64,000 nt of DNA from Saccharomonospora cyanea NA-134. Its GTDB lineage: Bacteria; Actinomycetota; Actinomycetes; Mycobacteriales; Pseudonocardiaceae. The translations under genes and the position numbers were made by a program. The stretch is taken from positions 2,030,325 to 2,094,324 of the forward strand of contig NZ_CM001440.1 in NCBI RefSeq assembly GCF_000244975.1. The letters are read 5' to 3'. This document shows positions 14,614-37,916 of the stretch, in pieces. The notes under the pieces are model-generated. The model ran no database searches. It saw nothing but the letters and a program-made list of their open reading frames with translations, and had not been told where the DNA came from. Numbering within the stretch: position 1 is the stretch's first letter; each line of letters begins with the position of its first letter.

Positions 14614-15048
14614 TCAGTTCTGCCGGGCCTGCGACACCAGGGCCGGGACCGGCCGGGGCCTGCCGTCCGCGTCGATCGCGACGAACGTCAACCGAGCGGT
14701 CGCAACCTCCGTCACCGGCCCTGAGGTGTTCCACCGTTCGGAGGTCACCCTGACCACGGTGGTCATCGAGGTCCGTCCGGCTCGCTCCAGTTCGGCGTGG
14801 ACGCTGAGCAGGTCACCGGCCCGTACCGGGGCCAGGAAGGTCATCCGGTCCACCGACACGGTCACGGCGGGACCGTCGGCGTGGCGGGCCGCGGCGGCAG
14901 CCGCCGCGTCGTCGATCAACTTCATCACCACACCACCGTGGATGGTGCCGTACAGGTTGGTGTCGTGCTCGCTCATGATGTGAGCGAGGGTGACCTGGGA
15001 ATCCGCTGGGGTCTTGGGCGTGGAACGCACCGTGCTCTGGTCGGCCAC
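14614..15048 (-). CDS. Hotdog-fold acyl-CoA thioesterase (YciA/BACH type)
   Basis: The 144-residue protein starts at GTG 15048 behind an AGGAGAGATCAC ribosome site. The hotdog core is clear: LAHIMSEHDTNLYGTIHGGVVMKLIDDAAAAAA gives the HGG-helix and the catalytic Asp region, and VSVDRMTFLAPVRAGDLLSVHAELE the second strand pair. It hydrolyses acyl-CoA to free acid and CoA in the cytoplasm. A cobalamin riboswitch lies immediately upstream on the same strand with no other gene between, so this thioesterase appears to be the only gene it can control in cis. That is unexpected for a family with no known B12 link. It converges with the LCP gene. Confidence 0.9.
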   Translation of the reverse strand: MADQSTVRSTPKTPADSQVTLAHIMSEHDTNLYGTIHGGVVMKLIDDAAAAAAARHADGPAVTVSVDRMTFLAPVRAGDLLSVHAELERAGRTSMTTVVRVTSERWNTSGPVTEVATARLTFVAIDADGRPRPVPALVSQARQN

Positions 15049-15084
15049 GTGATCTCTCCTTCGCGAGTCGCGGCGGGACGGCAC

Positions 15085-15104
15085 CGTGCGCGTGGTCGCG
15101 CACG
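15085..15104 (-). promoter_or_regulatory. Perfect 8-bp hairpin between riboswitch and thioesterase start
   Basis: On the minus strand CGTGCGCG-ACCA-CGCGCACG forms an 8-bp all-paired stem with a tetraloop. It begins a few bases after the B12 box and 36 nt before the thioesterase start. It is a good candidate for the switching part (terminator or ribosome-site control) of the riboswitch. No T-tract follows it. Confidence 0.6.
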
Positions 15105-15310
15105 GGCGGCGGGCAGGTCTTCGGACTCGTGGGCACTTCGGTCGCTTCCGGAAGGGATCCGGAGGACAGGCTCCTACTGGCCGTCGCTTCCCAGGCCGGG
15201 TGGCCCAGTGCTCGATGACGGCGGTCGTTCCCACTCACCGCTGCGGGGCAGTCCCGGATTCGCACCGGGTTCCCTCTTACGACGCCCCGGGGACGGGGCG
15301 AACCCACTGC
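15105..15310 (-). ncRNA. Cobalamin (adenosylcobalamin) riboswitch aptamer
   Basis: Read on the minus strand, the region contains the conserved core elements of a B12 riboswitch in order: AAGAGGGAACCCGGTG, then CGAATCCGGGACTGCCCCGC and AGCGGTGA; a GCACTGGGCCACC segment near 15205 matching the GCCACTG element; and the B12 box AGTCCGAAGACCTGCC at 15112-15127. These are the strongest conserved blocks of the family. Outer limits are approximate because I did not fold P1. It lies between the peroxiredoxin stop (15463) and the thioesterase start (15048), on the same strand as both. Confidence 0.92.
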
Positions 15311-15462
15311 GCACACCACCTTACGGCGCGGCCGGTGAGGCCGGTGAGGCCGAGGCTCCGGCGGTGGTCGAACCATCGTCCCGCTCCTGTGCGGCGAGCG
15401 GCCGACGAACATCACGGGCTTGTTCCGCGTCACGCCGGGGTTTCCCACGACTCGCGCGGTGG

Positions 15463-28019: not shown

Positions 28020-28814
28020 GTGGCGGGAGCGAGCGCGGTCCTGCGGGACCTGGACGGCGAGAGCGAGGAGGTCGACGCCCTCGTGGCCGACCTGGACCCG
28101 CCGCGATGGTCGCTACCGACGCCCGCGCCGGGGTGGACGATCGCCCACCAGATCGCGCACCTGGTGTGGACCGACGCCAAGACGTTGATCGCCGTCCGCA
28201 CGCCGGACGCGTTCGCCGAGGAGGTCGCCTCCGCGTTGGCCGGGGGCGGGAACTACGTCGACGAGGGAGCCGAAGCCGGCGCCCGGACACCACCCGACCG
28301 GTTGCTGGAGACGTGGCGGCGACAGCGCCGGGAGCTCGGCGAGGCGCTGCGCGCGGTGCCCTCCGGCACGCGACTGCCGTGGTTCGGCCCGCCGATGAGC
28401 GCGGCGTCGATGGCCTCGGCCCGCCTGATGGAGACGTGGGCCCACGGCCAGGACATCGCCGACGCCCTCGGCGTGCGCCGCGCGCCGACGGGCAGGCTGT
28501 GGCACGTCGCCCGGCTCGGGGTGCGCACCCGCGACTTCGCCTTCGGCGTGCGCGGGCTGGCGGCGCCGACCGAGGAGTTCCGGGTGGAGCTCACCGCGCC
28601 CGACGGCGACACCTGGACGTTCGGGCCGGAGGACGCGGCGCAGCGCGTCACCGGAAGTGCCCACCACTTCTGCCTGCTCGTCACCCAACGGGTGCACAGG
28701 GCCGACACCGACCTTCGCGCCGACGGTGAGCAGGCCACGGCGTGGCTGGACATCGCGCAGGCCTTCGCCGGTCCGCCGGGGCCCGGCCGCGCCCGCGAGG
28801 GGACCCGGCAGTGA
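28020..28814 (+). CDS. TIGR03084-family, maleylpyruvate-isomerase-like (DinB fold) protein
   Basis: The 264-residue protein starts with GTG 28020 behind GAGGAGG. The N-terminal half is a four-helix DinB/MPI_N bundle with histidine positions [11 protein letters not shown] and [18 protein letters not shown], suited to bind a metal ion, as in mycothiol-dependent isomerases. The C-terminal part ([19 protein letters not shown]) matches the C-terminal domain of TIGR03084. It opens the plus-strand operon; its stop overlaps the AtuA-like start (GTGA). Function is unknown. The family is often found beside AtuA-type genes, which supports a role in this pathway. Confidence 0.8.
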
Positions 28815-30496
28815 TCCGCATCGGCAACGCCTCCGGTTTCTACGGTGACCGGTTCTCGGCCGTGCGCGAGATGCTCACCGGCGGCCCGCTCGACGTGCTG
28901 ACCGGCGACTACCTGGCCGAACTCACGATGCTCATCCTCGGCAGGGACCGGTTGAGAGACCCCGCGCGCGGCTACGCCACCACGTTCCTGCGGCAGCTGG
29001 AGGAGTGCCTCGGACTGGCCGTCGACGCGGGCGTGACGGTGGTGGCCAACGCAGGCGGCCTCAACCCCGCGGGCTTGGCCGAGGCGCTGTGTGAGCTCGC
29101 GCAGCGGGTCGGGGTGACCGTGAAGGTCGCCCACGTCGAGGGCGACGACCTGGTCGCCCGGGCGGAGGAACTCGGCCTGGGCACACCCGTGACGGCCAAC
29201 GCCTACCTCGGCGCGTTCGGGATCGCCGAAAGCCTGCGGGCGGGCGCCGACGTGGTGGTGACCGGGCGGGTCACGGACGCCTCGCTCGTCGTCGGTCCCG
29301 CCGCGGCGCACTTCGGCTGGACGCCCGCCGACCACGACGCGCTCGCCGGTACCGTGGTCGCCGGTCACGTGCTCGAATGCGGTGCGCAGGCCACGGGCGG
29401 AAACTACGCGTTCTTCACCGAACACCCGCGCGGCCTCCCCGGCTTTCCGGTCGCGGAGATCGCCGAGGACGGCTCCAGCGTCATCACCAAGCACGACGGC
29501 ACCGGAGGCGCCGTCACCGTCGGCACGGTCACGGCGCAGTTGCTGTACGAGATCGCGGGCCCGCGCTACGCCGGACCCGACGTCACGGCGCGCTTCGACA
29601 GCATCCGGCTCGAACAGGACGGACCCGACCGCGTACGGGTGAGCGGAGTGCGCGGGGAACCGCCTCCCCCGCGGCTGAAGGTGGGCTGCACGACCCTCGG
29701 CGGGTACCGCAACGAGGTGACGTTCGTCCTCACCGGACTCGACGTCGAGGCCAAGGCCCAGTGGGTGCGGCACCAGCTCACCGAGGCGCTGGGTGAGGCC
29801 CCCCCACGTTCGGTCCGGTGGACGCTGGCCCGCACCGACCACGCCGACGCCGACACCGAGGAGACGGCGAGCGCGTTGCTGCACTGCGCGGTCCGCGACG
29901 ACGACGCCGACGTGGTGGGGCGCGCGTTCAGCGGTGCGGCGGTCGAGCTGGGCCTGTCCAGCTACCCGGGTTTCCATCTCACCGCGCCGCCGGGAAAAGC
30001 GGCTCCGTACGGCGTGTTCGGCGACGCCTTCGTGGACGCGGCCACCGTGCCGCACGTCGCCGTGCTTCCCGACGGGACCAGGATGGACATCGCCCCGCCC
30101 GCGTCGAGGAGGGAACTCACCGAGGTGCCCGAGCCCCCGCTGCCCGCGCCGTTGCCCGACGGGCCGAGCCGGCGTGTGCCGCTGGGCACGGTCGCGGGCG
30201 CTCGCAGCGGTGACAAGGGCGGCAGCGCGAACATCGGCGTGTGGGTGCGTTCCCCCGAGGCGTGGCGCTGGCTCGCTCACACGCTCACCGTCGACGCGGT
30301 ACGGACGCTGCTGCCCGAGGTGGCCGACCTGCCGGTGCGCCGGTACCTCCTGCCCAACCTGTGGGCGGTCAACGTCGTCGTCGACGGAATCCTCGGCGAG
30401 GGAGTGGCCTCGCGAGCCCGGTTCGACCCGCAGGGCAAGGCGCTGGGCGAGTGGCTGCGCAGTCGCCTCGTCGACGTTCCGGAGGTGCTGCTGTGA
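28811..30496 (+). CDS. atuA: AtuA-like protein (acyclic terpene utilisation, DUF1446)
   Basis: The 561-residue protein has an N-terminal DUF1446/AtuA domain ([64 protein letters not shown]). From about residue 450 there is a C-terminal AtuA-like domain ([20 protein letters not shown]). In Pseudomonas atuA is needed for growth on citronellol and geraniol, but its reaction is not established. Here it sits in front of an acyl-CoA dehydrogenase and a two-subunit acyl-CoA carboxylase, all with overlapping stops and starts. This supports a branched or terpenoid acyl-CoA route. The same order is recalled for the mycobacterial Rv0976c-fadE13-accD2-accA2-fadE12 locus. Confidence 0.88.
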
Positions 30497-31647
30497 CCCC
30501 GACCGACCCCTTCGCCACCCCCGAACGCGGGATGCTGCGTGAGACGGTGCGGCGATTCGTGACCACCGAGGTGCTGCCGTACCTGGACGACTGGGAACGG
30601 GAGGGCGAGCTGCCCCGCACGCTCCACAGCAAGGCGGCGGGGCTCGGGCTGCTCGGGCTGTCGTTCCCGGAGAGTGTCGGCGGCTCCGGCGGTGACGTCC
30701 TCGACGTCGTCACGGTCGTCGAGGAAGCCCACTACGCGGGTGCGTCGGGCGGTGTGATCGCGGCGCTGTTCACCGGCGGCATCGCCCTGCCGCACATCGT
30801 CGCGGCGGGCGACACCGAGCAGATCGACCGGTGGGTGCGGCCCACTCTGGCCGGCCGCACCGTCGGGGCACTCGCCGTCACCGAGCCGGACGGCGGTTCG
30901 GACGTCTCGGCCCTGCGCACCACCGCCGTCCGCGACGGCGACCACTACGTCGTCAACGGGGCGAAGACCTTCATCACGTCGGGCTGTCGGGCCGACTTCG
31001 TCACCACCGCGGTGCGCACCGGTGAGCAGGGCGCCCACGGCCTGTCGCTGCTCGTGGTCGAGAAGGGCACGCCGGGCTTCACGGTGAGCCGCAGGCTGGA
31101 GAAGCTGGGCTGGCACTGCTCCGACACGGCCGAGCTGTCGTTCAGCGATGTCCGGGTACCCGTCCGGCACCGGGTGGGAGCCGAGAACAGCGCGTTCACC
31201 CAGCTCGCGACACAGTTCGTCACCGAACGGCTCACGCTGGCCGTGCAGGCGTACGCGACGGCGCAGCGCGCCCTGGACCTCACCGTGGAGTGGTGCCGCC
31301 TGCGGGAGACGTTCGGCAGGCCGCTGATCTCCCGGCAGACCGTGCAGCACACGCTCGCGGAGATGGCCCGCCGGGTCGACGTCGCCCGCTCCTACGTGCG
31401 GCAGGTGGCGGTGCGGCACGCGGCCGGCGAGGAGGTCGTCGCACAGACGTGCTTCGCCAAGAACACGGCCGTCGAGGCGGGAGCCTGGGTGGTGGACAAG
31501 GCCGTCCAGTTGCACGGCGGGCTCGGTTACCTTCGGGAGTCCGAAGTGGAACGGCACTACCGGGACGTGCGGATCCTGGGTATCGGGGGTGGCACGTCGG
31601 AGATCATGACGCAACTGGCCGCCAAGCGACTGGGGTACGCCGCATGA
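30493..31647 (+). CDS. Acyl-CoA dehydrogenase (first of the operon)
   Basis: The 384-residue FAD enzyme oxidises an acyl-CoA to the 2,3-enoyl-CoA. ACAD hallmarks are ALAVTEPDGGSDVSAL (FAD/substrate loop), VVNGAKTFITSG, RETFGRPLISRQTVQHTLAEM, and the C-terminal VQLHGGLGYLRESEVERHYRDVRILGI. The catalytic-base region reads IGGGTSEIM, in which a Glu follows GGTS as in short/branched-chain enzymes. GTG 30493 overlaps the AtuA stop and its own stop overlaps the carboxylase beta start (ATGA). It resembles FadE13/AtuD-type enzymes by position; chain-length preference is not readable. Confidence 0.94.
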   Translation: MTPTDPFATPERGMLRETVRRFVTTEVLPYLDDWEREGELPRTLHSKAAGLGLLGLSFPESVGGSGGDVLDVVTVVEEAHYAGASGGVIAALFTGGIALPHIVAAGDTEQIDRWVRPTLAGRTVGALAVTEPDGGSDVSALRTTAVRDGDHYVVNGAKTFITSGCRADFVTTAVRTGEQGAHGLSLLVVEKGTPGFTVSRRLEKLGWHCSDTAELSFSDVRVPVRHRVGAENSAFTQLATQFVTERLTLAVQAYATAQRALDLTVEWCRLRETFGRPLISRQTVQHTLAEMARRVDVARSYVRQVAVRHAAGEEVVAQTCFAKNTAVEAGAWVVDKAVQLHGGLGYLRESEVERHYRDVRILGIGGGTSEIMTQLAAKRLGYAA

Positions 31648-33251
31648 CGATCCTGAAGTCGGGCGTGGACACCACGGAACCGCGCCACACCGCCTACCGC
31701 GAGGCGATGCTCGCCAGGCTCGCCGAGATCGAGGCCGAGCACGCCAAGGCCGTCGCGGGTGGAGGGCAGAAGTACGTCGAGCGGCACCGCCGCCGCGGCA
31801 AGCTGCTCGTGCGGGAGCGCATCGAGCTGCTCCTCGACCCCGACTCCCCGTTCCTCGAACTCTCCCCGCTGGCGGGTTGGGGCAGCGACTACCCGGTGGG
31901 TGCCAGCGTGGTGACCGGGATCGGGGTCGTCGAGGGCGTCGAATGCCTCGTCGTCGGCAACGACCCCACGGTGCGCGGCGGCGCGAGCAACCCGTGGACC
32001 GTGCGCAAGATCTTCCGGGCGTGCGACATCGCGTTGGAGAACCGGCTGCCCGTGATCAACCTCGTCGAGTCGGGTGGGGCGGACCTGCCCAGCCAGAAGG
32101 AGATCTTCATTCCGGGTGGGCGGCTGTTCCGCGACCTCACCCGGCTGTCGGCGGCCGGAATCCCCACGATCGCGCTCGTGTTCGGCAACTCCACGGCCGG
32201 TGGCGCGTACGTGCCCGGAATGTCCGACCACGTCGTGATGGTCGAGGAGCGGTCCAAGGTGTTCCTCGGCGGTCCGCCTTTGGTGAAGATGGCCACCGGA
32301 GAGGTCTCCGACGACGAGTCGCTCGGGGGTGCGGCCATGCACGCGCGTACCTCCGGCCTGGCCGACCACCTGGCGCGCGACGAGGTCGACGCCATCCGGA
32401 TCGGCAGGAACATCGTGAAGCGGCTGAACTGGCGTAAGCGCGGTCCCGCGCCCGCCGTCGTGGCACCGCCGCGCTATGACCCCGAGGAACTGCTGGGCAT
32501 CGTGCCTGACGACCTCAAGGTGCCGTTCGACCCGAGGGACGTGCTCGCCAGGGTGGTGGACGACTCGGACTTCGACGAGTTCAAACCGCTCTACGGCGCC
32601 AGCCTGGTCACGGGCTGGGCCCGCATCCACGGCTACCCCGTCGGGGTGCTCGCCAACGCCCAGGGCGTGCTGTTCAGCGAGGAGTCCCAGAAGGCCGCGC
32701 AGTTCATCCAGCTCGCCAACCAGGTGAGCACCCCGCTCGTGTTCCTCCACAACACCACGGGGTACATGGTCGGGAGGGACTACGAACAGGGCGGCATCAT
32801 CAAGCACGGCGCCATGATGATCAACGCCGTGTCGAACAGCCGGGTGCCGCACTTGTCCGTCCTCATGGGAGCGTCCTACGGAGCCGGGCACTACGGTATG
32901 TGCGGCCGCGCGTACGACCCCCGGTTCCTGTTCGCGTGGCCGAGCGCGAAGTCGGCGGTGATGGGGCCCGCGCAGCTCGCCGGGGTGCTGTCCATCGTGG
33001 CGCGCAACGCGGCACAGGCGCGGGGCCAGGACTACGACGAGGATGCCGACGCGGCGCTGCGCGCGGCGGTCGAGGCGCAGGTGGAGGCGGAGTCGCTGCC
33101 GCTGTTTCTGTCCGGCCGTCTCTACGACGACGGCGTGATCGACCCCAGGGACACGCGCACGGTGCTCGGTCTGTGCCTGTCGGCCGTGCATTCCCAGACC
33201 GTCCAGGGTGCCTCGTTCGACGGCACCGGCTTCGGCGTCTTCCGGATGTGA
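31644..33251 (+). CDS. Acyl-CoA carboxylase beta subunit (carboxyltransferase)
   Basis: The 535-residue subunit transfers CO2 from carboxybiotin to an acyl-CoA. It has the N-half CoA site (SGGADLPSQKEIF, FGNSTAGGAYVPGMSD) and the C-half biotin site (FLHNTTGYMVGRDYEQGG, MGASYGAGHYGMCGRAY), with the MCC/GCC-type pattern more than the propionyl type. Partners in Atu (AtuC) and Liu (LiuB) pathways carboxylate geranyl-CoA or methylcrotonyl-CoA. Which substrate applies here is not decided by sequence alone. The order AtuA-ACAD-beta-alpha-ACAD matches the mycobacterial accD2/accA2 locus as I recall it. The alpha subunit follows after 7 bp. Confidence 0.95.
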   Translation: MTILKSGVDTTEPRHTAYREAMLARLAEIEAEHAKAVAGGGQKYVERHRRRGKLLVRERIELLLDPDSPFLELSPLAGWGSDYPVGASVVTGIGVVEGVECLVVGNDPTVRGGASNPWTVRKIFRACDIALENRLPVINLVESGGADLPSQKEIFIPGGRLFRDLTRLSAAGIPTIALVFGNSTAGGAYVPGMSDHVVMVEERSKVFLGGPPLVKMATGEVSDDESLGGAAMHARTSGLADHLARDEVDAIRIGRNIVKRLNWRKRGPAPAVVAPPRYDPEELLGIVPDDLKVPFDPRDVLARVVDDSDFDEFKPLYGASLVTGWARIHGYPVGVLANAQGVLFSEESQKAAQFIQLANQVSTPLVFLHNTTGYMVGRDYEQGGIIKHGAMMINAVSNSRVPHLSVLMGASYGAGHYGMCGRAYDPRFLFAWPSAKSAVMGPAQLAGVLSIVARNAAQARGQDYDEDADAALRAAVEAQVEAESLPLFLSGRLYDDGVIDPRDTRTVLGLCLSAVHSQTVQGASFDGTGFGVFRM

Positions 33252-33258
33252 GGTTGTC

Positions 33259-35253
33259 GTGATCACGAATCTGCTGGTCGCCAACCGTGGCGAGATCGCA
33301 CTCCGGATCTTCCGTACGTGCCGTGAGTGGGGTGTCGGCACCGTCGCCGTGCATTCCGACCCGGATGCGAACGCGCTGCACGTCGCCGCCGCGGACGCCG
33401 CCGTCCGCCTGCCCGGGGCCGCTCCGGCCGACACGTACCTGCGGGTGGACGCGGTGGTGTCGGCCGCGCTCGCCGCGGGCGCGGACGCGGTCCACCCCGG
33501 ATACGGTTTCCTGTCCGAGAACGCGGAGTTCGCCCGCGCCGTGCTCGACGCGGGCCTGGTGTGGGTGGGGCCGTCGCCGGAGAGCATCGCGCTCATGGGC
33601 TCGAAGACCGAGTCCAAGCGCGTGGTGGCCGCCGCCGGAGTGCCCGTGCTGGCCGAGCTCGACCCGGAGAGCCTCACCGAGGAAGACCTGCCCGTGCTGG
33701 TGAAGGCGTCGGCGGGCGGGGGTGGTCGTGGCATGCGTGTGGTCCGCGACCGGGCCGAGGCCGCCGAGGCCGTGGCGGCGGCCCGTGCCGAGGCCGCGTC
33801 GGCGTTCGGGGACTCGGCCGTGTTCTGTGAACGCTTCCTCGAACGCGGCAGACACATCGAGGTGCAGGTGCTGGCCGACACCCACGGCACCGTGTGGGCC
33901 GTCGGGGAACGCGAGTGCTCCATCCAGCGCAGGCACCAGAAGGTGGTGGAGGAAGCTCCGTCCGGTGTGGACGAAGGACTGCGGCAGCGGCTGTTCGAGG
34001 CCGCGCGTGAGGTGTGCCGGGTCACCGACTACGTCGGCGCGGGCACCGTGGAGTTCCTCGTCACCGACGACGGCGAGTTCTTCTTCCTGGAGATGAACAC
34101 GCGCTTGCAGGTGGAGCACCCCGTCACCGAATGCGTCACCGGGCTCGACCTCGTGGCGTGGCAGCTGCGGATCGCCGAGGGGCAGGCTCTGCAGGGCGAG
34201 CCGCCGCGACCCCGGGGCCACGCGATCGAGGCCCGCCTCTACGCCGAGGACCCGCGCTCCGACTGGCGTCCCGGCAGCGGGACGCTGCACCGGTTCGCGG
34301 TGCGGGACGTGCGGGCGGAGTTCACGGTGCCCGATCGCTACGGAATCCGGCTCGACAGCGGTGTCGCCGACGGCACCGAGGTGAGTGTGCACTACGACCC
34401 GATGCTCGCCAAGGTGATCGCCTGGGGCCCGGACCGCACCTCGGCGGCGCGGATGCTCGCCGGGACACTCGCCTCGGCCCGCGTGCACGGGCCCGTGACC
34501 AACCGCGACCTGCTGGTGGCCGTGCTGCGGCACCCCGACTTCCTCGCCGGCGACACCCACACGGACTTCCTCACCCGGCATGCCGACCGCGTGCTCGACG
34601 CGGGGCCCGGCGAGGCGGGCGCGCGGCTGTCGGTACTGGCCGCCGCGCTGGCGGACGCGGAGCACAACCGAACGCACGCCCGGGTGCTCGGGTCGCTCCC
34701 CGGCGGCTGGCGCAACGTGCCGTCGGCCCCGCAGGTGAAGACGTACCGGCACGACGGCACCGACCGCTCCGTCCGCTACAGCGCCACCCGCACCGGTCCG
34801 GTGCTGGAGGAACACCCGGAGGTCACCGTGGTGGCCGTGACGCCGGAGCGGGTGCTGCTGTCGTGTGACGGCGTGCGCCGCACGTTCCACGTGACTCGCC
34901 ATCCCGGTCTGGTCGTGGTGGACTCCCCGCTGGGTTCGGTGAGCCTCGCACCCGTGCCGCGCTTCACCGACCCGGCCGCCGAACTCGCCGAGGGTTCGCT
35001 CGTGGCGCCCATGCCCGGCACGGTGGTGCGCCTGGCCGTGTCCGTCGGTGACGAGGTGCGGGCGGGACAGCCGCTGTTGTGGCTGGAGGCGATGAAGATG
35101 GAGCACCGTGTCACCGCACCCGCCGACGGCGTGGTCACCGAGCTCGCCGTGGCCGAGGGCGCTCAGGTGGAGCAGGGTGCGGTCATGGCCGTCGTCACCG
35201 CAGGGGAAGCCACCGACGTCGGGGCAGTCGAGACAACGGAGGAGTCAGCGTGA
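33259..35253 (+). CDS. Acyl-CoA carboxylase alpha subunit (biotin carboxylase + BCCP)
   Basis: The 664-residue protein starts at GTG 33259. It has an N-terminal biotin carboxylase domain (LLVANRGEIALRIFR; HPGYGFLSENAEFA; ATP loop KASAGGGGRGMR; ERECSIQRRHQKVVEEAP; FFFLEMNTRLQVEHPVTE), a middle linker domain and a C-terminal biotinyl domain. The biotin-accepting Lys613 lies in EAMKMEH, close to the C-terminus. It carboxylates biotin with ATP and bicarbonate and delivers it to the beta subunit encoded next door. Its stop overlaps the next dehydrogenase start (GTGA). The full-length, intact domain order indicates a working enzyme. Confidence 0.96.
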   Translation: MITNLLVANRGEIALRIFRTCREWGVGTVAVHSDPDANALHVAAADAAVRLPGAAPADTYLRVDAVVSAALAAGADAVHPGYGFLSENAEFARAVLDAGLVWVGPSPESIALMGSKTESKRVVAAAGVPVLAELDPESLTEEDLPVLVKASAGGGGRGMRVVRDRAEAAEAVAAARAEAASAFGDSAVFCERFLERGRHIEVQVLADTHGTVWAVGERECSIQRRHQKVVEEAPSGVDEGLRQRLFEAAREVCRVTDYVGAGTVEFLVTDDGEFFFLEMNTRLQVEHPVTECVTGLDLVAWQLRIAEGQALQGEPPRPRGHAIEARLYAEDPRSDWRPGSGTLHRFAVRDVRAEFTVPDRYGIRLDSGVADGTEVSVHYDPMLAKVIAWGPDRTSAARMLAGTLASARVHGPVTNRDLLVAVLRHPDFLAGDTHTDFLTRHADRVLDAGPGEAGARLSVLAAALADAEHNRTHARVLGSLPGGWRNVPSAPQVKTYRHDGTDRSVRYSATRTGPVLEEHPEVTVVAVTPERVLLSCDGVRRTFHVTRHPGLVVVDSPLGSVSLAPVPRFTDPAAELAEGSLVAPMPGTVVRLAVSVGDEVRAGQPLLWLEAMKMEHRVTAPADGVVTELAVAEGAQVEQGAVMAVVTAGEATDVGAVETTEESA

Positions 35254-36407
35254 CCTTCACCGAACCCGCCGAACGGTCGGCGCTGCGCGAAGCCGTGGCC
35301 GAGCTCGCGGCGAAGTACGGCCACGAGTACTACCTGGAGAAGGCCCGCGGCGGCGGACACACCAGCGAACTCTGGGACGAGGCGGGCAGGCTCGGCTACC
35401 TCGGCGTGTCCGTGCCGGAGGAGTACGGCGGCGGGGGTGCGGGCATCGGCGAGCTGGCGGCCGTGTGCGAGGAGTTCTGCGCTGCGGGTACCCCGATGCT
35501 GCTCATGGTCGTCTCACCCGCGATCTGCGCGACGGTGATCGCGCGGTTCGGCACCGACGAGCAGAAGTCCCGCTGGCTTCCCGGGTTCGCCACCGGAGTG
35601 GTGCGGATGTCCTTCGCCATCACCGAACCCGACGCCGGGTCGAACGCCCACCGCATCACCACCACGGCCCGCCGCGACGGCGATGACTGGATCCTGAGTG
35701 GACGCAAGGTTTTCATCTCCGGAGTGGACGAGGCGGACGCGGTGCTCGTGGTGGGCCGCACCTCCGACGCCCGCACGGGCAGGCTCAAGCCCGCGTTGTT
35801 CGTCGTGCCCACCGACACGCCGGGCTTCGAGTACCGGGCCATCCCGATGGATCTCGTGTCGGCCGACAAGCAGTTCGAGCTGCTCCTCGACGACGTGCGG
35901 CTGCCCGGTGACGCCCTTGTGGGAAGCCAGGACGCGGCGATCGCGCAGCTGTTCGCGGGGCTGAACCCGGAACGGATCATGGGGGCGGCGTTCTCCGCAG
36001 GCATCGCGCGTTACGCCCTGGACAAGGCGGTGACCTACGCCAGGCAGCGCAGCGTGTTCGGGGTACCCATCGGATCGCACCAGGGGCTGGCCCACCCACT
36101 GGCCGAGGTGAAGATCGAACTGGAACTGGCGAGGCTCATGACCCAGAAGGCCGCCGCGATCTACGACTCGGGTGACGACGCCGCGGCGGGTGAGGCCGCC
36201 AACATGGCCAAGTACGCCGGGGCCGAGGTGGCCGTGCGTGCCGTCGACCAGGCCGTGCAGGTGCACGGCGGCAACGGACTGGCCTCCGAGTACGGTCTTG
36301 GCACGATGCTGGCCGCGGTGCGGGTGGGCAGGATCGCCCCGGTGAGCCGGGAGATGGTCCTGAACTACGTGGCCCAGCACAGTCTGGGACTTCCCAAGTC
36401 CTACTGA
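35250..36407 (+). CDS. Acyl-CoA dehydrogenase (second of the operon)
   Basis: The 385-residue FAD enzyme has MSFAITEPDAGSNAHRI, ILSGRKVFISGVDEADAVLVV, RQRSVFGVPIGSHQGLAHPLAEVKIEL and VQVHGGNGLASEYGLGTM. The C-terminal catalytic segment reads RIAPVSREMVLNYVA. It differs from the first dehydrogenase, so the two probably act on different intermediates (for example citronellyl-CoA before carboxylation and a shortened acyl-CoA later). It corresponds by position to FadE12 beside accA2. Its last codons form the first copy of a near-perfect duplication (36386-36430). Confidence 0.94.
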   Translation: MTFTEPAERSALREAVAELAAKYGHEYYLEKARGGGHTSELWDEAGRLGYLGVSVPEEYGGGGAGIGELAAVCEEFCAAGTPMLLMVVSPAICATVIARFGTDEQKSRWLPGFATGVVRMSFAITEPDAGSNAHRITTTARRDGDDWILSGRKVFISGVDEADAVLVVGRTSDARTGRLKPALFVVPTDTPGFEYRAIPMDLVSADKQFELLLDDVRLPGDALVGSQDAAIAQLFAGLNPERIMGAAFSAGIARYALDKAVTYARQRSVFGVPIGSHQGLAHPLAEVKIELELARLMTQKAAAIYDSGDDAAAGEAANMAKYAGAEVAVRAVDQAVQVHGGNGLASEYGLGTMLAAVRVGRIAPVSREMVLNYVAQHSLGLPKSY

Positions 36408-36430
36408 AGTCCGGGACTTCCGAAGTCCTA
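36386..36430 (+). repeat. Imperfect direct repeat spanning the ACAD stop codon
   Basis: GGGACTTCCCAAGTCCTA (36386-36403, encoding the C-terminal LPKSY region) recurs as GGGACTTCCGAAGTCCTA (36413-36430), with a 27-bp period and 17 of 18 matches. Each copy also contains a short self-complementary core (GGACTTCC/GGAAGTCC type), so a small mRNA hairpin in the SDR leader is possible. Confidence 0.8.
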
Positions 36431-36460
36431 CCGACCCGTGATTCGAACGAGGAGTTGTCC

Positions 36461-37312
36461 GTGACCGACCTGTCAGGCAAGACCATCATCATGTCCGGCG
36501 GCAGCCGCGGCATCGGCGAGGCCATCGCCGTGCGCGCGGCGCGCGACGGCGCCAACGTGGCGTTGCTCGCCAAGACCGCCGATCCGCACCCCAAGCTGCC
36601 CGGCACCATCCACACGGCGGCGAAGGCCATCGAGTCCGCGGGCGGCCACGCGCTGCCGATCGTGGGTGACATCCGTGACGACGAGACCGTGGTGCGGGCG
36701 GTCGAGAGCGCCGTCGAGCAGTTCGGCGGCGTGGACATCGTGGTGAACAACGCGAGCGCCATCGACCTCACGCCGTCCGAGGTCATCCCCATGAAGCGCT
36801 ACGACCTCATGCAGGACATCAACGCGCGCGGCTCGTTCCTGTTGTCGCGCACGGCGATCCCGCACCTGCGCCGCTCGGACAACCCGCACATCCTGACGTT
36901 GTCGCCGCCGATCCGGCTGGAGGAGAAGTGGTTCACCGGCGGCCACCTCGCCTACAGCATCGCGAAGTACTCGATGAGCCTGGTCACCGTGGGGCTCGCC
37001 GCGGAGCTGAAGGACGCCGGGGTGGCCGTGAACTCGTTGTGGCCGCGCACCACCATCGACACCGCGGCCATCCGCAACGTGGTCGGTTCGGAACTGTCGA
37101 GCCGGTCGCGCACACCGGAGATCATGGCCGACGCGGCGTACGCGGTGCTCACGAAGCCGAGCCGCGAGCTCACGGGGCGGTTCCTCATCGACGACGAGGT
37201 GCTGGCCGCCGAGGGCGTCACGGACTTCTCCCGCTACCGGCTCGCCGAGCGCGAGGAGGACCTGCAACTCGACTTCTGGGTCGAGCCCGCCGACGGCACC
37301 GATGGCGCGTGA
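36461..37312 (+). CDS. Short-chain dehydrogenase/reductase (AtuB/HSDL2-like)
   Basis: The 283-residue protein starts at GTG 36461 behind GAGGAG. The NAD(P) motif is MSGGSRGIGEAIAV, followed by LAKTADPHPKLPGTI, a long loop typical of the HSDL2/AtuB-type subgroup. VVNNASAIDL and the catalytic Tyr-Lys pair in LAYSIAKYSMSL follow. C-terminal residues VNSLWPRTTIDTAA also fit that subgroup. It probably oxidises a hydroxyl or reduces a keto group in the same acyl-CoA route. The gene overlaps the TetR gene by 11 bp. Confidence 0.9.
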   Translation: MTDLSGKTIIMSGGSRGIGEAIAVRAARDGANVALLAKTADPHPKLPGTIHTAAKAIESAGGHALPIVGDIRDDETVVRAVESAVEQFGGVDIVVNNASAIDLTPSEVIPMKRYDLMQDINARGSFLLSRTAIPHLRRSDNPHILTLSPPIRLEEKWFTGGHLAYSIAKYSMSLVTVGLAAELKDAGVAVNSLWPRTTIDTAAIRNVVGSELSSRSRTPEIMADAAYAVLTKPSRELTGRFLIDDEVLAAEGVTDFSRYRLAEREEDLQLDFWVEPADGTDGA

Positions 37313-37916
37313 ACCCCGGCAGGAGCGCAGCCGGACGACCCGCCGTCGGCTGATCGACGCCACCGTGGAGTGTCTGGCCGAACTCGGCTGGACCGGCACC
37401 ACGGTGGGTGTCGTCGCCGAACGGGCGGGTGTGTCCCGGGGCGCGGCCCAGCACCACTTCCCGACGCGGGAGGACCTCGTGGTGGCCACCGTCGAGTTCC
37501 TCACCGAGGAACAGATCACCGAGGTCCGGCGGCGGGCCGAGACCCTGCCGCAGGGCCGGGGCCGCGCCGAACCGGTGGCGCGCATGCTCCTGAACCTCTA
37601 CACGGGGGCGAAGTTCCGGGCCGCGCTGCACCTGTGGGTGGCGGCGTCCACCGACGACGCACTGCGGGCCGTGCTGGCCCCGCTGGAGGCGAAGGTGGGC
37701 CGGGAGTCGCACCGCGTGGCCGTCGACCTGCTCGGCGCGGACGAGTCCCGGCCGGGCGTGCGCGAGACCGTGCAGGCGACCCTCGACCTCGCCCGTGGCC
37801 TCGGGCTGGCGGACCTGCTCAGCGACGACTCGAAACGCCGGCAGCGCCTGGTACGCCAGTGGGCGAAGGTGCTCGAACCCATCGTCGGGGAGGGTGGAGA
37901 CCGACCCGTACCGTGA
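37302..37916 (+). CDS. TetR-family regulator of the catabolic island
   Basis: The 204-residue protein has an N-terminal TetR HTH (about 12-60: TTRRRLIDATVECLAELGW, VGVVAERAGVSRGAAQHHFPTREDLV) and a variable ligand-binding helical domain. As the last gene of the operon, overlapping the SDR stop, it is likely an autoregulator that derepresses the operon with an acyl-CoA ligand. A candidate operator lies at 27931-27948. The gene converges with the amino-sugar locus. Confidence 0.9.
   Translation: MAREPRQERSRTTRRRLIDATVECLAELGWTGTTVGVVAERAGVSRGAAQHHFPTREDLVVATVEFLTEEQITEVRRRAETLPQGRGRAEPVARMLLNLYTGAKFRAALHLWVAASTDDALRAVLAPLEAKVGRESHRVAVDLLGADESRPGVRETVQATLDLARGLGLADLLSDDSKRRQRLVRQWAKVLEPIVGEGGDRPVP

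Follow-up and report, generated by a model that had tools for sequence, protein, structure and literature searches.

The DNA analysed here, a 64,000-nt stretch of Saccharomonospora cyanea NA-134 (the window), contains a single Rfam match, a cobalamin riboswitch aptamer (RF00174) on the minus strand at 15095–15322 that spans model positions 1–189 of 189 and scores 94.7 bits (cmscan, E = 2.7e-22; gathering score 31.5 bits), which rules out a chance aptamer. By covariance score and by its same-strand position 5′ of a gene, the element is an ordinary RF00174 member, and cobalamin binding is predicted. The next gene on that strand (14614–15048) starts with GTG 46 nt beyond the aptamer and encodes a 144-aa hotdog (4HBT) acyl-CoA thioesterase (TE). 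A first-pass annotation, made from the letters of the sequence, had proposed this arrangement, and the significant, full-length covariance match bears out the aptamer and its location; the gene order and the fold hold as well. The details shift: the aptamer ends lie about 10 nt from the proposed 15085 and 15310, the spacing to TE is shorter than the 60 bp given, and the hairpin described as 8 bp long is real with 9 bp (CCGUGCGCG/CGCGCACGG, minus strand, 15084–15105). This hairpin follows the aptamer core and overlaps the end of the Rfam match; across the g1 alignment its stem is mostly retained and its loop varies.

As the annotation had also stated, no B12 gene adjoins the riboswitch and TE in the window. 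Genes for a peroxiredoxin (prx) and a GGDEF/EAL protein lie upstream, and an LCP-family gene lies downstream on the opposite strand. The class I ribonucleotide reductase genes that it had put 3 kb away, nrdB and nrdA (the latter named by sequence), do start 2.8 kb upstream on the strand of TE. Elsewhere in the window (28020–37916) is a run of genes that by sequence encode acyl-CoA dehydrogenase, acyl-CoA carboxylase and related proteins, with no riboswitch match.

TE matches PF03061 with 78 bits (gathering score 20.6), which places it in the hotdog superfamily and predicts hydrolase activity. Its best NCBIfam model is YciA (NF007970), at 65.9 bits and thus below the equivalog cut-off of 162, and the PDB entry that it matches best is a cytosolic acyl-CoA thioester hydrolase (E = 9e-34). 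TE therefore resembles the YciA/ACOT7-type hotdog thioesterases in fold and in best matches, but differs from them in falling short of the YciA cut-off and in lying behind a riboswitch. Values of dN/dS between 0.09 and 0.26 (eight pairs) support purifying selection on the protein. Known targets of cobalamin riboswitches are genes for uptake or synthesis of B12 and for B12-independent stand-in enzymes; judged from its 4HBT homology, the predicted TE product appears to belong to none of these classes.

The leader has the parts expected of a transcription unit. A putative −10 box, TAAGGT, can be read on the minus strand immediately upstream of the aptamer (15318–15323). Among 38 leaders of relatives, a set that does not include the window leader, TAnnnT occurs at one constant position 5′ of the aptamer in 32, versus 4 of 760 control windows. 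In five of the remaining six, TAGGCT or TAGAGT is visible at a slight offset, probably through misplacement of the anchor; one leader (L107) has no box at either the fixed place or slightly shifted from it. At the other end, a motif that includes the Shine-Dalgarno sequence, CTCGCGAAGGAG (minus strand, 15056–15067), is conserved across leaders and invariant in 39 of 39 aligned leaders, which were chosen by this motif; it is missing from two riboswitch leaders (L099 and L105). The distance from aptamer to CTCGCGAAGGAG ranges from 49 to 195 nt. The ribosome-binding site (RBS) motif CTCGCGA(A)GGAG is common to TE leaders and many metE leaders.

How regularly does the riboswitch accompany TE? A scan of public genomes, from which the best 80 of 85 TE relatives were taken, gave 79 loci, 43 of them actinobacterial (41 Streptomycetaceae, 1 Saccharomonospora and 1 Actinospica), and all 43 were run against Rfam. 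Since the scan retrieves close relatives, this set is biased to the riboswitch-linked type of TE. The synteny check that the annotation had called for came out in favor of the pairing: among these relatives, a riboswitch over the cut-off lies directly 5′ of TE in 34 of the 43 loci. In a further five (L094, L096, L099, L100 and L102) the order is riboswitch-metE-TE, so that one riboswitch heads both genes, and four loci of the set (L079, L104, L106 and L136) have no riboswitch over the cut-off. TE is incomplete at two loci, L108 and L136, and in L090 the order is riboswitch-TE-riboswitch-metE. Additional cobalamin riboswitch matches lie close to TE without preceding it at L097:5109–5334 and L094:5001–5309.

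A second sample of 200 Streptomycetaceae genomes shares several genomes with the first, so the two are not independent; 118 contained TE relatives at E = 1e-40. These copies fall into two groups, one at 68% identity or more (17 genomes) and one at 51%–63%. In the 17 genomes with the closer copy, the riboswitch is directly upstream in 14, the order is riboswitch-metE-TE in two (one metE match being incomplete) and there is no riboswitch in one. In Streptomycetaceae, one and the same leader, including its −10 box and RBS, accompanies TE in many differing gene contexts. At L079:2560–3005, Streptomyces sp. ERV7 carries a second TE copy in which the RBS motif and the leader's 3′ half remain but the aptamer's 5′ half is missing; from its sequence, this copy may be a natural variant without B12 control.

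For comparison we used 17 Streptomycetaceae loci of paralogues that are 54%–64% identical, hand-picked rather than random (those from the upper end of the list and those in genomes with both types). Rfam found no cobalamin riboswitch at five paralogue loci (L193–L196 and L198), and a short aptamer-core pattern was found in none of the 17 paralogue stretches, a weak test since the pattern misses some genuine riboswitches. The 20-kb paralogue stretches contain no metE, aceA, aceB, ramB, mutAB, mmsA or btu-like genes in any of the 17 cases. Riboswitch-type stretches have metE and/or aceA in 5 of 17 cases, two stretches being shorter (13 and 10 kb), and one further stretch has a metE fragment under the length threshold. 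Within about 3 kb on each side of TE in the 43 loci (among the best 80 of 85 relatives), metE is present in seven and aceA in seven, counts that are not independent events since kin species inherit neighborhoods. In Streptomyces sp. ERV7, methylmalonyl-CoA mutase and meaB-like genes lie ~6 kb from TE, beside aceA and a 3-hydroxybutyryl-CoA dehydrogenase gene, and in S. chumphonensis the riboswitch-TE pair, a riboswitch with metE and a riboswitch before btuFCD-like genes are clustered together. Judged by their sequences, the neighbors of TE appear to include genes that probably serve B12 uptake, genes for the B12-dependent turnover of methylmalonyl-CoA and genes for alternatives that do without B12.

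Within Saccharomonospora six of 12 genomes lack TE and two have a broken copy, which counts against the reading favored below. TE DNA is matched in 6 of 12 genomes and absent from the other six. Riboswitch and TE are both intact in four (the window, G001, G008 and G011). In the remaining two, G010 and G002, the RBS and first codons of TE are deleted, and the G010 match contains two stops; there the aptamers have lower scores, 75.3 and 77.9 bits, respectively, versus 89.4–94.7 in the four intact genomes, and are changed at positions invariant in the remaining aligned sequences. Five genomes (G003, G004, G005, G007 and G009) have an empty site, with prx adjoining the LCP gene at a distance of 30–70 bp and neither riboswitch nor TE. 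The sixth genome without TE (G006) has a regulator-like gene after prx, and the stretch examined stopped short of any LCP gene. Three Saccharomonospora genomes (L061:3218–6145, L062:7578–10490 and L068:34–2712) have a large regulator-like gene of ~970 aa, which by eye resembles SARP regulators, between prx and riboswitch-TE; the window lacks it.

A tree built from 73 TE proteins separates the riboswitch-linked type, a single group of 45 rows with support of 100/100, from the paralogues. The four rows from Saccharomonospora cluster together (95/92) and fall within Streptomycetaceae; the tree has only 130 columns and many open inner forks. Identity of the window TE reaches 90% with Streptomyces TE, compared with about 60% for the best TE from other genera of its family. 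For metE the pattern is opposite: 53%–54% with two Streptomyces proteins and 62% with a protein from its own family. Since TE nests within Streptomycetaceae, TE and metE differ in this way and five congeners have the empty site, promoter, riboswitch and TE were probably acquired together. On well-supported branches of the same tree, linkage to metE changed at least three times; therefore, rearrangements did not part TE from a riboswitch. Among the eight rows linked to metE, one (L104) lacks a riboswitch.

The pairing also occurs outside Actinobacteria. In Hymenobacter persicinus (Bacteroidota; L145), a 103.4-bit cobalamin riboswitch lies upstream of TE; the genome has only two cobalamin riboswitches, and the other precedes a gene for a TonB-receptor plug domain. 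From a sample of 100 Hymenobacteraceae genomes, 42 match the H. persicinus TE at E = 1e-30, and the best 30 of these 42 loci were examined with a covariance model, R1, built from seven Hymenobacteraceae loci. R1 finds a riboswitch in 26 of the 30, including 19 of 23 outside the model-building set, always on the TE strand and 159–247 nt 5′ of the TE match; the other four of these best 30 loci (L285, L299, L301 and L302) have no R1 match. The Hymenobacter TE belongs to the same superfamily and is 36% identical to the window TE (YciA model, 50.6 bits); the pairing thus has a second, probably separate occurrence in a distinct TE lineage from a different phylum. At 36 non-actinobacterial TE loci (in L109–L146), R1, which leans to Hymenobacter-like aptamers, found a match near TE only at L145; a further R1 match, at L140:112–259, is ~2.7 kb from TE. 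Closer to the window, in the genus g2 of the same family, genome G057 has a 65.7-bit riboswitch upstream of a TE outside the linked group, with an RBS motif that differs from that of CTCGCGAAGGAG-type leaders, and its congener G012 has no riboswitch over the cut-off; g2 may be a third separate case. In the genera g24 and g43 (five loci), TE and a riboswitch-metE operon are in divergent orientation.

From these patterns of linkage, TE is very likely a genuine target of a cobalamin riboswitch. We found no earlier report of a thioesterase in this role in the open-access literature searched, most subscription papers lying outside that scope, and as far as we have seen the target is new. The unreported target class that the annotation had raised as one of two explanations is supported by a conserved pairing that has apparently moved as a unit and that recurs in another phylum with a TE lineage of its own. 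Among published cases, the closest is a cobalamin riboswitch before mmsA in S. griseus, described in passages of PMC8914203; it resembles the TE riboswitch in acting on Streptomyces acyl-CoA metabolism but differs in its gene set and in its leader. The metE riboswitch, present in the same genome and in Streptomyces, is alike in RF00174 membership, in the RBS motif found in many of its leaders and in the five loci (among the best 80 of 85 relatives) where it heads metE and TE together. It differs in that TE is neither a B12-independent stand-in in any known sense nor a gene of B12 transport or synthesis.

If TE is under B12 control, how might it be regulated, and for what? The reading that we favor, with some reservation, is that riboswitch and TE form a self-contained single-gene unit in which B12 represses translation of TE and the enzyme relieves an acyl-CoA load. 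That TE is off when B12 is present is probable; that control is exerted at translation is somewhat less so, if still better than even; and relief of an acyl-CoA load at low B12 is put forward tentatively. Transcription would start at the promoter just 5′ of the aptamer and run into TE. With cobalamin bound, the aptamer strand would be held, and a hairpin covering the RBS and start codon (GCCGCG/CGUGGC plus CUC/GAG; minus strand, 15044–15074), predicted in the minimum-energy fold, would keep translation of TE low. Without cobalamin, the hairpin arm ACUCGCG would pair with the aptamer strand CGCGAGU/CGAGUC, and translation would be on.

Comparison of leaders gives this RBS-covering stem moderate support from covariation, since shuffled alignments match its changes on both sides more often than its share of paired cells. 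In relatives, a related 6-bp stem has 83% of cells paired (13 distinct sequences), a value reached by 17 of 500 shuffles; three of its six pairs are changed on both sides, which 173 of 500 shuffles equal, and its covariation score is reached by 61 of 500. Two of these six pairs do not form in the window leader. The left arm of the stem is complementary to the aptamer strand CGCGAGUC over 6–8 nt in 37 of 37 leaders; shuffles reach a 6-nt length in about 19%–31%. For the window, which is outside the 37-leader set, the complementarity read by eye is 6 nt, a length that by itself is within chance. The whole-leader fold is no more stable than shuffles (z = −0.27), nor are short folds of the RBS region (z = −1.40 to 0.31). 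According to parts of PMC2258182, the cobalamin riboswitch family usually switches through a C-rich-loop pseudoknot; no clear partner for such a pseudoknot was seen in the TE leader.

It is also possible, if unlikely, that control occurs through early transcription termination, or through Rho or RNA decay, rather than by hiding the RBS, with TE still on at low B12. The strong 9-bp hairpin 3′ of the aptamer would suit such a mechanism, and in the S. griseus case, passages of PMC8914203 describe transcripts that end early, in a growth-phase-dependent manner, upstream of the gene for methylmalonate-semialdehyde dehydrogenase. However, no T-run follows the hairpin in the window sequence, so it is not a classical terminator and we dropped an intrinsic terminator at 15084–15105; moreover, the RBS motif is better conserved than the hairpin loop or the spacing between aptamer and motif, which favors translational control.

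As for function, B12-dependent mutases stall when B12 is short. Under the proposed unit, TE would be made when B12 is scarce and would hydrolyze acyl-CoAs that pile up at the stalled mutases, freeing CoA; candidate substrates are methylmalonyl-, propionyl- or isobutyryl-CoA. The metE, aceA/aceB, methylmalonyl-CoA mutase and btu-like neighbors agree with this suggestion, as do the two mutases that the S. cyanea genome itself encodes. Besides the stalling of mutases, it draws on Methylorubrum expressing YciA, in which, according to parts of two reports (PMC10560148; PMC9529712), CoA-esters of the B12-using ethylmalonyl-CoA pathway are hydrolyzed and low cobalt increases product yield ~sixfold. 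Portions of the former report state that H. influenzae YciA converts methylsuccinyl- and mesaconyl-CoA and does not considerably convert other CoA-esters of the pathway (PMC10560148), which argues against assuming methylmalonyl- or propionyl-CoA as the TE substrate by analogy to YciA.

Alternatively, TE could be a catalytic step of a B12-independent bypass, such as the CoA-ester hydrolase of a side path for propionate or valine that is used when the methylmalonyl-CoA route is blocked. In S. lavendulae (L207:4332–10091), a 97.1-bit cobalamin riboswitch, a leader of the kind described for S. griseus, heads mmsA (for methylmalonate-semialdehyde dehydrogenase) and genes for an acyl-CoA dehydrogenase, a 3-hydroxyisobutyryl-CoA hydrolase, a 3-hydroxyisobutyrate dehydrogenase and an enoyl-CoA hydratase. 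The gene content suggests a B12-controlled path for propionate or valine that itself needs no B12, and TE often has metE or aceA, both B12-independent alternatives, in its vicinity. Yet the S. lavendulae operon has its own hydrolase from a different family, and TE is mostly the sole gene behind its riboswitch, so that we consider a role in a bypass doubtful. The S. lavendulae operon adjoins ramB-aceA-aceB, and aptamer-like cores, identified by pattern only, precede mmsA in 10 of 10 further Streptomycetaceae loci (L251–L260).

The other explanation offered by the annotation, that the riboswitch was left behind by rearrangement of the nearby ribonucleotide reductase operon (or of another B12 operon) and has no role for TE, has in its favor nrdB/nrdA on the same strand, but is highly improbable given the same leader and TE in so many Streptomycetaceae contexts with one −10 box and RBS, the prx-LCP adjacency without either element in five congeners and the separate occurrence in Hymenobacteraceae. 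The Streptomyces nrdABS genes reportedly have a riboswitch, in work attributed to Borovok in 2006.

Returning to the proposed single-gene unit, we suggest, with the same tentativeness as for its function, that at least two phyla have separately placed TE under a cobalamin riboswitch as a safety valve, in which stalled methylmalonyl- or propionyl-CoA, or related branched acyl-CoAs, would be hydrolyzed, the acid released and CoA freed. B12-deficient animals release methylmalonic acid; if the suggestion is true, the valve would be a programmed bacterial counterpart. A thioesterase target in two separate lineages would mean that B12 shortage also brings an acyl-CoA problem that is answered by gene control, and it makes two questions testable: which acyl-CoA accumulates without B12, and does TE remove it? 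In Streptomyces, propionyl- and methylmalonyl-CoA are polyketide precursors, and the riboswitch-TE unit may tie the supply of B12 or cobalt to these precursor pools.

Finally, the S. cyanea genome as a whole has two cobalamin riboswitches over the cut-off, in the leaders of TE and metE. It encodes both methylmalonyl-CoA mutase and an IcmF-type mutase, and its match to MetH domains contains one in-frame TGA. A weak cobalamin riboswitch match of 25.9 bits, under the cut-off, precedes (L003:1501–3141) a pair of genes that, as named from sequence, encode a BtuF/FecCD-like binding protein and permease and resemble a B12 importer.
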